A DNA stretch of 64,000 nt, taken from positions 1 through 64,000 of the forward strand of contig JAKAWY010000001.1 of assembly GCA_021816745.1 (NCBI GenBank). The letters are read 5' to 3'. The notes under the pieces are model-generated. The model was given only the letters and a program-made list of their open reading frames with translations. It searched no databases and had not been told where the DNA came from. How positions within the stretch are numbered: the first letter of the stretch is position 1; every line of letters begins with the position of its first letter. Both the position numbers and the translations under genes were made by a program. Shown here piece after piece: positions 53,399 through 58,540 of this stretch. The DNA is from Thermoplasmata archaeon (GTDB lineage Archaea > Thermoplasmatota > Thermoplasmata > Thermoplasmatales > Thermoplasmataceae).

Positions 53399-53953
53399 TT
53401 AGTCTCGTTTTCCAGAGAATCTTGCAGCATACTCCTTGAGCTTTGATTCATTCGTGTTTTTCTTTAGCTCATCCATGGTTACGGGATCAAGCTTTATTCC
53501 ATAATAAATGAAGTCCAGAAGAGTTTTTTCTGGATCGGAAACAGGAACAAAAAGCCCACCGTAATTCAGGTACTCAACCCCAAAGAACCCTTTTTCGTTT
53601 ATTCGGTGTAGTATAACCCTGATTCCCATGAGTTCTCTTACACCCGGATTCGCTTTACTCTTCGTTATGATCACCGGAACTGACTGTTGTGTCCAAAGTT
53701 TTCTAATTGTTAAAGCGTACTCCAACCCATAGTAGAAAGGTCTGAATCCAAATCCAACTACAGCTTCATTTCTTTGGAAAGTGTATGTTCCTTTCCCGAT
53801 TCTATGAAGTTGCCCTGATTGCACCAGATTGTGAAGCATGAGCCTTATGTAGGCTTCACTTGCGCCAAGCCTGATCAGAAATCTTCTTGCATCATCAGAC
53901 GTAAACATACTCTGTTTTGAGAAGAACTCAGCAAAAGCAGATTCATATTTCAT
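53399..53953 (-). CDS. AbiEi-like antitoxin/transcriptional regulator
   Basis: This 184-residue protein has an N-terminal winged helix (FTSDDARRFLIRLGASEAYI, LHRIGKGTYTFQRNE) and a C-terminal domain typical of AbiEi, with GLEYALTIRKLW, IITKSKANPGVRELMG and PEKTLLDFIYYG. In type IV AbiE systems this protein represses the promoter and counteracts the nucleotidyltransferase toxin without direct binding. Here it follows the toxin gene and overlaps it by 11 bp, the reverse of the usual order. The fold call is from motif pattern. Confidence 0.8.
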   Translation of the reverse strand: MKYESAFAEFFSKQSMFTSDDARRFLIRLGASEAYIRLMLHNLVQSGQLHRIGKGTYTFQRNEAVVGFGFRPFYYGLEYALTIRKLWTQQSVPVIITKSKANPGVRELMGIRVILHRINEKGFFGVEYLNYGGLFVPVSDPEKTLLDFIYYGIKLDPVTMDELKKNTNESKLKEYAARFSGKRD

Positions 53954-54584
53954 TTAGCCACCTGTGAATATATTCAACCATCCGGGAAAAATTCAGATCT
54001 TTCATACCTGCATAAAGCAATGAACTCAGTATACCTTCGTCAATTGGCCTGTGAATCTCATGCAGGAACCCGGAAAGCCTTGTTCTCACAATATAGTCTG
54101 AATTATTCAACCAGTTTGTCAGGATGAAAAGATCATAAATATCACGTATTAACCTCCTGCCCTGATATGCTTCTATCTTCCTGATCATCAATTCAGTGGG
54201 ACTGAGCACGCATATTGTCTTGGTAGTGCCATCTGAACGGGAGTAAGTCCTTATTTCGTTTTCAGCGTACCCTGGCTTGGTTTCCAGCAGAAGTTCTGTT
54301 TCATTATTGGCTATTCGTATTCTGGTTGGAAATTCAGGATCCTGCCATGTGAGTCTCAAATTGTACTTTCCCAGCGCCATAATAAAATTGTTCAAAGACA
54401 TGTCGTCCATATAAATGTCAATATCCTCAGAGAATCTCATACCACCAAAGCATCTCCAAATGGCAGTCCCACCATAGAGAAGTGCATCTGGCTGGAAAAC
54501 GTCATAAATGATGTCAATGACGTAATCCTGGAGCTCGGCTAGTTTCAACCTCTGTCCACTGAAATATGATCCAATTGGTATCAT
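53943..54584 (-). CDS. AbiEii-like nucleotidyltransferase toxin
   Basis: This 213-residue protein contains the nucleotidyltransferase core of the AbiEii/MenA group: LLYGGTAIWRCFGGMRFSED with GG and the two aspartates of DIDIY (54-58), an acidic strand ELLLETKPGY, and PTELMIRKIEAYQGR with the family lysine followed by RDIYDLFIL. MenA-type relatives add nucleotides to tRNA acceptor ends and stop translation. The catalytic acids are intact. It is shorter than many AbiEii (about 300 residues). ATG 54584 is preceded by a palindromic AT element. Confidence 0.82.
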   Translation of the reverse strand: MIPIGSYFSGQRLKLAELQDYVIDIIYDVFQPDALLYGGTAIWRCFGGMRFSEDIDIYMDDMSLNNFIMALGKYNLRLTWQDPEFPTRIRIANNETELLLETKPGYAENEIRTYSRSDGTTKTICVLSPTELMIRKIEAYQGRRLIRDIYDLFILTNWLNNSDYIVRTRLSGFLHEIHRPIDEGILSSLLYAGMKDLNFSRMVEYIHRWLNEI

Positions 54585-54938: not shown

Positions 54939-56207
54939 ATGTTAGAAGGAAATAAATCAAATCCATTTAAGAACAACATGTACACAGGTACCTCAGCGTC
55001 ATTTTTTTTCTGGGGTATAGTTGCAACAATAGGACCGCTAGCTGCATCAGAGAGCATTTTAACCGGACTGAATTCCAGTGAAAGGCTGTTATTTCTTTTA
55101 ATTGGGCCTATTGTAGTACCAGTTGGAAACCTGCTGCTTGGAATACTTTCAGATCTTTTTGGTAGAAGAAAAATATTCTTCCTTTCCATGCTGTTTTACT
55201 CTTCCGGAATTATTATCATAGGATTCAGCTATTCGGTAATCACCCTTATCTTAGGACTCATCCTGGCAGAATTTGGAGTTGGAGGGCAGGAGCCATCCGC
55301 ACTCTCACTGGTTGCAGAAAACACGGATTCTGAAAAAAGGCCTTTCTGGCTCACAATTATAACCAACATGAACAACATAGGAAGTGCTTCCATAGCATTT
55401 GTGTTCATATTTTTCGGTGGCACAGAAATTGCAAGAATATTGCTGGTTACCATATCCATGTTGATTGCTGGCATTATTATCTACACAATGCTTTCCACCC
55501 CTGAATCATATATATGGGAGAGGAAGAAAAACAAAGAGGAATGGGTTGATGACAAGAAAGAACTGGGAATAGAGAATGAAGGAGAGGAGACGCCCATGAA
55601 CAACCCAATATTCTCCTATGTTTTCCTTGTAATTATTGGAATTTCCCAGTACCTTACCTTTGGCCTGATGGCATATGTCCTTGCACCTGTTGAATTTCCT
55701 GGCGCAACCCTGGATGCAGAGATAATATGTGTTGCCCTTGCAGGTGCTTCCATATCTGGTTTTATCGCAGCAAAACTGATCTCAAGGGAGACAAAAAACT
55801 ACACATTTTTCTCCTTTGCATTCGGGACACTTACCACAATCATCATGCTGATTCTTTATCCATACCTGTACAACATGTATATTTTCATGCCACTCCTGTT
55901 CCTGAATATGGCAGCCAGCGAATTTGCATGGGCCTCCAGATCGGTACTTGAACCACAGGTAGTTGGGACCGGTATAAGATCCACATTCATAGGGCTTGTC
56001 AGACTTGGACCCATGATTGCATACCCCATTTTCACCGCCTTTTCATATTCTATGAGCATCCGGCAGTTTATCTCCACAAATCTGTTGCTCTGGGCACTTG
56101 GGCTTGCTGCATCTGTGGTCTGGTTAGTATACGGAATAGATGTCACAAGGAAGAACATAGATTATGGAGCAAAACACAGCATTGATGCGGAATTCTCCAC
56201 TAAATAA
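54939..56207 (+). CDS. MFS transporter under TPP control, probable thiamine(-precursor) importer
   Basis: This 422-residue protein has twelve hydrophobic helices and MFS loop motifs such as GILSDLFGRRKIFFLS between helices 2 and 3. A long charged cytoplasmic loop (KKNKEEWVDDKKELGIENEG) separates the two halves. The TPP riboswitch directly upstream implies import of thiamine or its precursors; this genomic arrangement has been noted before in Thermoplasmata. The substrate is inferred from regulation, not from residues. It lies 67 bp before the SHMT-like gene. Confidence 0.85.
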   Translation: MLEGNKSNPFKNNMYTGTSASFFFWGIVATIGPLAASESILTGLNSSERLLFLLIGPIVVPVGNLLLGILSDLFGRRKIFFLSMLFYSSGIIIIGFSYSVITLILGLILAEFGVGGQEPSALSLVAENTDSEKRPFWLTIITNMNNIGSASIAFVFIFFGGTEIARILLVTISMLIAGIIIYTMLSTPESYIWERKKNKEEWVDDKKELGIENEGEETPMNNPIFSYVFLVIIGISQYLTFGLMAYVLAPVEFPGATLDAEIICVALAGASISGFIAAKLISRETKNYTFFSFAFGTLTTIIMLILYPYLYNMYIFMPLLFLNMAASEFAWASRSVLEPQVVGTGIRSTFIGLVRLGPMIAYPIFTAFSYSMSIRQFISTNLLLWALGLAASVVWLVYGIDVTRKNIDYGAKHSIDAEFSTK

Positions 56208-56274: not shown

Positions 56275-57444
56275 ATGACTTCTATTACTGAACTGGTTGA
56301 CAGGTATGGAAGGTTCAGGAGCAACGTGCTGAATCTACAGGCCTCTGAGAATTATATTTGCCCGCACGTCAGGATGGCACTGGGTTCTGATCTTGGATCC
56401 AGGTATGCACATATTATGCCGGATGGCAACAATGCCTACGGCGGCACAAGCCTGACAGATGAGATATACAAGGAAACACAGGACTCCATAAAGAAACTTT
56501 ACAATTCAAGATTTGCAGAGGTAAGGCCCATCGGTGGCCATGTGGCAGCTGAGATCGCACTCCTTATCAGCGTGAAACGTGGTGGAAAGATAATGGCCAT
56601 AGACGAGAACCATGGAGGATATACCGGTTATATGAAAGGGTACCTTCCAGAAATGTTTGGCTTCAGTTCAGGCACGATTCCGTACATACAGGAAAAACAG
56701 GAAATTGATTATGAAAGGCTGGAAAAAGAGGCACTTACATACAGGCCGGATGCCATTGTCCTGGGCCAGTCATTTTTCCTGAAACCCTATGACCTGAAGA
56801 GAATAAGGGAGTTATGCGACAGAATTGGTTCCAAACTTCTTTACGATGGTTCACATGTGATGGGGCTCATAGCAGGAAAGAAGTTCCAGAATGATGCCCT
56901 GAAATATTCTGATATCCTGTTTGGATCAACCCACAAGTCTTTCTTCGGGCCCCAGGGGGGAATACTCCTGACAAACCAGGAGGAACTATTCCACCAGGCT
57001 GAATTCAACACAGTATGGAGAACCATGGACAATTACCACCCCAACAGGGTTGCAGCACTGGGAATAGCTGCACAGGATCTGATCGCCTTTGGCGAGGATT
57101 ATGCATCCAAGATCGTAAACAACTCCAAAGGCCTGGGAAAAGCCCTGGAGGAAAGGGGAATACCAGTGCAGTTCCAGCCATGGTACTCCGAATCACACCA
57201 GATTCTTCTTTCCCCGAAGATTAATGAAAGATATGGATCATTCCTGGAGATAAGCAGGAAACTGGAAAAGAACGGAATCATCTGCGACAGGGAGGGAAGG
57301 ATTGGACTCTCTGAGGCAACCAGGAGAGGATTCAATGACATGGACAGGATAGCCTCAGCCATTTCAGAAGCCATCAAAGGAAAGGATATGAGAAGTGAAA
57401 TTACGGACATAATGAGAGGAGCAGGGCTTAGATACTGTAAATAA
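56275..57444 (+). CDS. serine hydroxymethyltransferase-like PLP enzyme
   Basis: This 389-residue fold-type I enzyme shows NLQASENYICP (20-30), RYAHIMPDGNNAYGG, the PLP-phosphate region GGHVAAEIAL, DGSHVMGLIAGK (191-202) and the Schiff-base lysine K221 in STHKSFFGPQGG. These correspond to GlyA's NLIASEN, DAAHVxGLI and TTHKTLRGPRGG. SHMT moves one-carbon units between serine and glycine. The protein is 30-40 residues shorter than GlyA and has FFGPQGG instead of LRGPRGG, so a related aldolase or a different acceptor is possible. It precedes the CBS gene by ten bases. Confidence 0.8.
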   Translation: MTSITELVDRYGRFRSNVLNLQASENYICPHVRMALGSDLGSRYAHIMPDGNNAYGGTSLTDEIYKETQDSIKKLYNSRFAEVRPIGGHVAAEIALLISVKRGGKIMAIDENHGGYTGYMKGYLPEMFGFSSGTIPYIQEKQEIDYERLEKEALTYRPDAIVLGQSFFLKPYDLKRIRELCDRIGSKLLYDGSHVMGLIAGKKFQNDALKYSDILFGSTHKSFFGPQGGILLTNQEELFHQAEFNTVWRTMDNYHPNRVAALGIAAQDLIAFGEDYASKIVNNSKGLGKALEERGIPVQFQPWYSESHQILLSPKINERYGSFLEISRKLEKNGIICDREGRIGLSEATRRGFNDMDRIASAISEAIKGKDMRSEITDIMRGAGLRYCK

Positions 57445-57454
57445 AGGTGAAAAT

Positions 57455-58540
57455 ATGAAAACGGTTGAAGAAATAATGACAGAAAATCCGCAGCACGTGG
57501 ATGGAAACGCCACGGTAATGCTGGCCATGAACAGAATGAAGGAAAATTCCATAGGGCAGATTGCAGTGAACCTGGATGGAAAATATGCAGGGATGCTGGT
57601 ATACAGGGACATCATCAGGAAGAAGAGGATCCACCTGAATTCAAAGGCAAGAAATTTTGCCATGAATACACCTTCCCTGAAAAAGGGAGACAGCCTTGAG
57701 CATGCAGTGGAGCTTTTTAACGAAACAGGCCTGGGAGCCATCCCGGTGATTGAGAAGGAAAAAATTATCGGAATTGTCTCCATGACAGACATTATCAGAA
57801 ACATAACTGAATTCCCGGATTTTGGTGAATTCAAGGTTGAAAACCTGATGCTTGATCCATATAGTGTTTCACAGGACGAGGCACTGGAGCATTCCATCGA
57901 GATAATGAGGCAGCATGAATCGGATCTTGTTCCTGTAGTTGAAGACGGAAACAGGATTTCAGGCATCATCAGGCTGGAAAATATCGCTGATTATGAGGTA
58001 AAGAGCCGGGAGAATGAAACGGGGACAAGAAATCCTGGCGGGAATGAGAGGGCAGATATCTCAATTAAATCCATTATGGATCCTCCGGTGTTTGCCTATG
58101 AGGATGAAAACCTGATCACTGTCTGCGAGAGGCTTATCTCAAACCATATGCACAGGATACCTGTGTGCAATAAGGGCATGAACCTCACCGGGATGCTGGA
58201 AGTTGAGAACATAATATCACTGATCGGGAAAACAGAGGAAACCGAGGGTATGCTCATCAACGTTTCAGGTCTTTCATCCGGAGACATAGATCTTTACGAA
58301 ACCATTTATTCCATGGCAGACAAGTTTATCACAAGATTTTCCAGGATTACGAACCTGAAGGGCGCAACCTTCCGTATCCATGTGGTAAAACACCAGAGCG
58401 AACAGAGCAGGATAAAATATTCCATAAGAACGAAACTCTTTGCCAGGAAACTGAACATGTCAGTCAGTGATTCCGGATGGAACTTTGGAAAGGTGCTCTC
58501 TGGCATTTTCGATACCTATGAAAAAAGAGCTAAAAAATAA
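57455..58540 (+). CDS. four-CBS-domain protein with HPF-like C-terminal domain
   Basis: The 361-residue protein holds four CBS motifs: about 5-58 (EEIMTENPQHV...GMLVYRDIIRKK), 62-125 (AIPVIEKEKIIGIVSMTDII), 126-180 (DLVPVVEDGNRISGIIRLENI) and 198-262 (RIPVCNKGMNLTGMLEVENI). Such pairs bind AMP, ADP or ATP in archaeal AMPK-gamma-like proteins. The last 95 residues (LINVSGLSSGDIDLYETIYS to SDSGWNFGKVLSGIFDTYEK) resemble the beta-alpha-beta fold of ribosome hibernation factors (HPF/RaiA): INVSG start, IHV strand, KYSIRTKL strand and a final helix. An energy-sensing ribosome-binding role is inferred. Shine-Dalgarno AGGTGA precedes the ATG; the gene is coupled to the SHMT-like gene. Confidence 0.75.
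   Translation: MKTVEEIMTENPQHVDGNATVMLAMNRMKENSIGQIAVNLDGKYAGMLVYRDIIRKKRIHLNSKARNFAMNTPSLKKGDSLEHAVELFNETGLGAIPVIEKEKIIGIVSMTDIIRNITEFPDFGEFKVENLMLDPYSVSQDEALEHSIEIMRQHESDLVPVVEDGNRISGIIRLENIADYEVKSRENETGTRNPGGNERADISIKSIMDPPVFAYEDENLITVCERLISNHMHRIPVCNKGMNLTGMLEVENIISLIGKTEETEGMLINVSGLSSGDIDLYETIYSMADKFITRFSRITNLKGATFRIHVVKHQSEQSRIKYSIRTKLFARKLNMSVSDSGWNFGKVLSGIFDTYEKRAKK

Follow-up and report, generated by a model that had tools for sequence, protein, structure and literature searches.

The hibA Locus and Its Host Genome

The analyzed stretch of DNA, referred to here as the window, comprises 64,000 nucleotides of a draft archaeal genome (1.3 Mb in 95 contigs, about 79% complete). An intact open reading frame extends along its + strand from the ATG at 57455 to the stop codon at 58540 and encodes a protein of 361 amino acids, in which four CBS domains are followed by a C-terminal domain of the HPF/RaiA type. 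The reading frame itself, Pfam matches, the comparison of orthologues, profile searches and the predicted fold all contributed to its annotation as a very probable orthologue of the archaeal protein HibA, and the gene is called hibA below.

The ATG is located 10 nt from the end of a gene for an SHMT-like PLP enzyme (56275–57444, + strand), which was identified by Pfam and NCBIfam searches and by the comparison of loci as a paralogue of the canonical SHMT of the same genome and is apparently co-transcribed with hibA. The sequence GGTGA at 57446–57450 on the + strand, between the stop codon of the SHMT-like gene and the ATG, is the probable ribosome binding site of hibA. Upstream of the SHMT-like gene lies that of an MFS transporter (54939–56207, + strand), which occupies the same position in the same-genus loci with enough flanking sequence. 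An AbiEi/AbiEii-type pair (53399–54584, − strand; Pfam PF13338 and PF08843) is likely a type IV toxin–antitoxin system. Downstream of hibA, the segment 58584–62282 of the + strand encodes a protein of 1232 amino acids with repeated units, a C-terminal hydrophobic stretch and no Pfam match; this is probably a surface protein.

A single-sequence search of genome contigs returned only two close relatives of the window protein, both from metagenome assemblies of Thermoplasmata archaeon, to which it is 73% and 50% identical along its entire length. Meanwhile, matches were obtained in 99 of the 101 genomes searched in the order (Thermoplasmatales), and most of them were full-length and colinear. Since such orthologues are conserved through the order, the architecture seen in the window is not a matter of chance. 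The alignments used below contained 44 full-length orthologues and 30 C-terminal domains, all from this order.

Domain Composition of the Window Protein

The window protein was matched by Pfam PF00571 four times, each time above the curated cut-off (1.3e-37 for the whole protein), which bears out the four CBS domains named in the initial annotation. They are encoded on the + strand at 57464–57622 (CBS1), 57671–57805 (CBS2), 57836–57994 (CBS3) and 58064–58225 (CBS4). The loop between CBS3 and CBS4 (57989–58060, + strand) was recognized by alignment as the counterpart of the PTC loop of P. abyssi HibA (residues 190–207 there), which extends to the peptidyl-transferase centre in P. abyssi. Over the same alignment columns it is 24 residues long in the window protein and 25 in P. 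abyssi HibA. The window protein lacks the loop signature YGExxGEK, which P. abyssi shows and several Thermoplasmatota have in a similar form. In the AlphaFold2 model, this loop is of low confidence, being unreliable at residues 188–198 (pLDDT < 50).

The C-terminal domain, about residues 265–361 (58247–58537, + strand), was assigned to the HPF/RaiA type from the PF02482 matches of its orthologues, AlphaFold2 and Foldseek. Residues 265–361 of the window protein alone gave no Pfam or NCBIfam match, the search with PF02482 over the whole genome missed the domain, and phmmer with just the last 113 residues gave no meaningful match. As the single-sequence search was uninformative for this part of the protein, profiles and fold were needed. 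PF02482 (Ribosomal_S30AE, the HPF/RaiA family) was matched by 20 of the 30 orthologous C-terminal domains at E ≤ 10, with the best value of 2.8e-8; the domain of the window protein was not among them. Across the 44 aligned full-length sequences, G272 and R325 do not vary, and K321, Y322, S323, W342 and N343 are nearly invariant. The elements that had initially been pointed out as HPF-like were all located at predicted secondary structures, namely INVSG in a strand of residues 266–271, IHV in a strand of residues 304–314, KYSIRTKL in a strand of residues 320–330, and the final helix at residues 344–360.

The AlphaFold2 model of the C-terminal domain showed the HPF topology with pLDDT values of mostly 80–98. 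When this model was compared with the PDB using Foldseek, ranks 1–29 were all occupied by HPF, RaiA, protein Y or their chloroplast or mycobacterial equivalents (best E 7e-5, probability 1.00). The structure prediction of residues 265–361, suggested at the outset as a check that might speak against the annotation, thus yielded the HPF/RaiA fold, and the claimed resemblance of this region to HPF/RaiA stood. The TM-scores to bacterial HPF were moderate, reaching 0.45–0.67 of the query for ranks 1–8. Foldseek with the full-length model listed only CBS proteins in the top 50, presumably since the score is determined largely by the CBS part; the problem disappeared once the C-terminal domain was folded by itself. 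P. abyssi HibA was not among the Foldseek matches from a library extending to 8 April 2026, and we assume that its entries were released after this cut-off, the paper being dated 27 April.

The bacterial HPF, RaiA and protein Y have the same predicted fold as the C-terminal domain of the window protein, but they lack a CBS module and their sequence similarity to this domain is at the noise limit. In a search with the C-terminal profile only, 9l96_a and HibA came first and bacterial hibernation factors next, with E-values of only 0.01–0.9. Therefore, as far as sequence is concerned, the homology of the C-terminal domain depends on the alignment of the whole protein, and the fold provides independent support. 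Of the 72 Thermoplasmatota genomes with a match to the same C-terminal profile, 71 had just one, usually in an open reading frame for ~360–470 amino acids; a single HPF-type protein was thus found in nearly all of these genomes.

Relationship to HibA and Other Ribosome-Associated Proteins

In April 2026, HibA was described as a hibernation factor widespread among archaea; it combines four CBS domains with an HPF/RaiA domain and occurs in 47% of archaeal genomes (PMC13324472). Further hallmarks of HibA are two archaeal-specific insertions in the HPF/RaiA domain and a CBS module that falls in the CM-5 clade of the CM-1 to CM-6 phylogeny, and its reference structure is 9SRE at 2.1 Å. It was observed on P. 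abyssi ribosomes by cryo-EM with three CBS positions, P. abyssi HibA inhibited translation in vitro, and its deletion in Thermococcus barophilus resulted in fewer 70S ribosomes and delayed recovery (PMC13324472).

When the profile of 44 orthologues was compared with the PDB, P. abyssi HibA (9sr9 chain H; the protein is present in 7 further entries) was the first of 113 sequences with an E-value of 8e-50, the alignment spanning positions 2–362 of the profile and 5–371 of HibA. The next matches were 9znf_4, a CBS protein from a Methanosarcina acetivorans ribosome entry (7e-39), 9l96_a (7e-36) and Dri (2e-34). The profile of the CBS module alone also placed HibA first with 157 bits, followed by 9znf_4 from the M. 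acetivorans SriA/SriB–ribosome entry (124) and Dri (121). We conclude, with a probability of roughly 0.93, that HibA has its Thermoplasmata orthologue in the window protein, which would, as such, be a ribosome-hibernation factor. The two proteins are alike in the four tandem CBS domains followed by the HPF/RaiA domain, in the colinear homology over the full length and in the CBS3–CBS4 loop. The window protein differs from P. abyssi HibA in its C-terminal domain, which is diverged in sequence, in the PTC loop without YGExxGEK, in the CBS domains that have an intact ligand motif and in the co-location of its gene with the SHMT-like gene. The first three of these differences and the moderate TM-scores are counted against this identity.

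The kind of protein is thus already known, as its architecture is the same as that of the published HibA. The gene had been proposed to code for a ribosome hibernation factor, which is supported by the profile, the fold and the characterized homologue; the accompanying statement that CBS-domain hibernation factors had been reported in archaea was right, as HibA has the same architecture (PMC13324472). With 99 of 101 genomes matched, most of them over the full length, the published HibA family is placed firmly in an order of Thermoplasmata.

By analogy with the proteins of P. abyssi and T. barophilus, the window protein would bind ribosomes, inhibit translation and preserve the 70S particles. 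Its C-terminal HPF/RaiA domain would occupy the 30S mRNA/tRNA channel, and the four-CBS disk would fill the vacant tRNA sites on the 50S subunit; idle 70S ribosomes would be held inactive and protected until growth resumes. The genome of the window protein also contains aSBDS, a companion found in P. abyssi. A search of the literature for an experiment on a Thermoplasmata member of HibA found none.

Several other proteins resemble the window protein in part. HVO_2384 of Haloferax volcanii, likened here by description, reportedly has the same architecture, and the report on it is limited to its co-purification with an inactive Pat2 variant (PMC12607858). The PDB entry 9l96, for which a paper was sought and none was found, contains in chain a a 'CBS domain-containing protein' of 406 amino acids, whose match to the full-length profile includes the C-terminal domain and whose CBS3–CBS4 loop is longer than that of the window protein. 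SriA–SriD of M. acetivorans (9znf, 9zng, 9zni) are likewise CBS-domain proteins on the 70S ribosome, but their chains do not match the profile of window orthologues over its C-terminal HPF region. Dri of Pyrobaculum calidifontis (9e6q, 9e7f) is also built of CBS modules and blocks the ribosome. An identity with Dri was rejected, as Dri has two fused CBS modules without an HPF/RaiA domain, whereas the window protein has one CBS module with an HPF/RaiA domain.

Instead of a ribosome factor, the window protein could be an HhpR-type (CM-3) transcription regulator, since HhpR shares the four-CBS module and is a relative of such modules (PMC13324472), and the NCBIfam model of HhpR does match the window protein weakly (36 bits). 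The same genome, however, encodes a better candidate, a four-CBS protein of 282 amino acids at L001:614–1462 (contig C37), which is matched with 139.8 bits over 274 residues and is itself under the NCBIfam cut-off of 520. Moreover, HhpR is a stand-alone CBS module, while the window protein carries the additional HPF/RaiA domain. The identity with HhpR was rejected on these two grounds, and we consider such a regulator highly improbable.

Ligand Motifs of the CBS Domains

The usual ribose-contacting motif of CBS domains is G-x-x-[ST]-x-x-D. It was compared for each of the CBS domains as a guide to ligand binding and not as proof of it. The [ST]xxD part is intact only in CBS3 and CBS4 of P. abyssi HibA, whereas in the window protein it is intact only in CBS2 (GIVSMTD). 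CBS1 (GMLVYRD) retains the Asp and has lost the Ser/Thr, while the degenerate motifs of CBS3 (GIIRLEN) and CBS4 (GMLEVEN) are without both residues. None of the 44 orthologues from the order has the Ser/Thr of CBS3, and the motif of CBS2 is intact in 43 of them.

P. abyssi HibA binds AMP, ADP and ATP with Kd values of 12, 65 and 113 µM, respectively, at the CBS3/CBS4 interface (PMC13324472). As CBS2 alone retains the full motif and CBS3 and CBS4 lack it, any nucleotide site of the window protein has probably moved or been lost. We infer from the motifs that such a site, if present at all, would be formed by CBS1/2 and not by CBS3/4 as in P. abyssi. This shift of the ligand motif from CBS3/4 to CBS2 is a lead absent from the main text of the HibA paper (PMC13324472).

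Linkage of hibA to an SHMT-like Gene

At each of the 24 primary hibA loci analyzed from the host family (Thermoplasmataceae), as in the window, an SHMT-like gene was found directly upstream of hibA, on the same strand and with a gap of −11 to +10 nt. Meanwhile, no SHMT-like gene was present within 4 kb, where the contig extends that far, at 16 hibA loci from other families of the order. The coupling of the two genes, which had been noted as unusual, is therefore real but confined within the order to the host family.

The canonical SHMT is encoded separately in the same genome (contig C40). The SHMT-like paralogue retains its stretches ASEN, STHK and RIG, to which a functional meaning is generally ascribed, and scores 230 bits, below the NCBIfam cut-off of 335 for SHMT. 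Across the phylum, relatives of the SHMT-like gene are widespread and often accompany a second SHMT. In two other families of this order, the gene is separate from hibA, lying next to threonine-synthase-like and formate-THF ligase genes in one and to a PyrE-like gene in the other, these neighbors being assigned by eye from the sequence. Since it stands elsewhere in other families, the SHMT-like gene looks like that of a metabolic enzyme whose link to hibA arose and stayed in one family. A literature search for an SHMT paralogue in Thermoplasma gave nothing relevant by title, and the main text of the HibA paper mentions neither hydroxymethyltransferase nor operons (PMC13324472). That hibA and an SHMT paralogue are paired so consistently in the host family is thus a second lead absent from that text.

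What the CBS module of this HibA orthologue senses can be read in several ways. The initial annotation had proposed energy sensing, in which AMP or ATP at the CBS module would turn ribosome binding on or off. The preference of P. abyssi HibA for AMP over ADP and ATP speaks for it, as does the motif of CBS2 kept in nearly all of the aligned orthologues. However, neither AMP nor ATP had a clear effect on the ribosome binding of P. abyssi HibA (PMC13324472), and in the window protein both motif residues are gone from CBS3 and CBS4 and only the Asp is left in CBS1. Energy sensing is thus supported only in part, and such a switch seems unlikely to us. If the motif shift abolishes adenylate binding, this would argue against a universal energy-sensing role of the CBS module.

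Alternatively, nucleotide sensing may have been lost and the module may respond to a different signal, such as a metabolite of the SHMT-like enzyme encoded next to hibA, or bind no ligand. The degenerate motifs of CBS3 and CBS4 and the invariable linkage in the primary loci of the family are consistent with this. Yet gene linkage alone shows no ligand, the SHMT-like gene stands beside other genes in other families, and the motif of CBS2 is intact, which makes the loss of sensing a doubtful explanation as well. Both leads would be combined in a HibA variant that binds its nucleotide at CBS1/2 in place of CBS3/4, or has taken a different ligand, and that is linked to the SHMT-like enzyme in its production or activity. 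Hibernation would then be coupled to serine/glycine one-carbon metabolism in the host family; we regard this as a speculative and quite improbable arrangement.

In addition to the primary loci, three further loci of the family (L057, L080 and L030, in genomes G062, G066 and G085, respectively) are unlinked to an SHMT-like gene, and each of their genomes has a second hibA-like match. In G062 and G066, this second copy is an SHMT-linked hibA (L058 and L079, respectively). The CBS3–CBS4 loop of the three unlinked copies is 30–41 residues long, compared with about 24.
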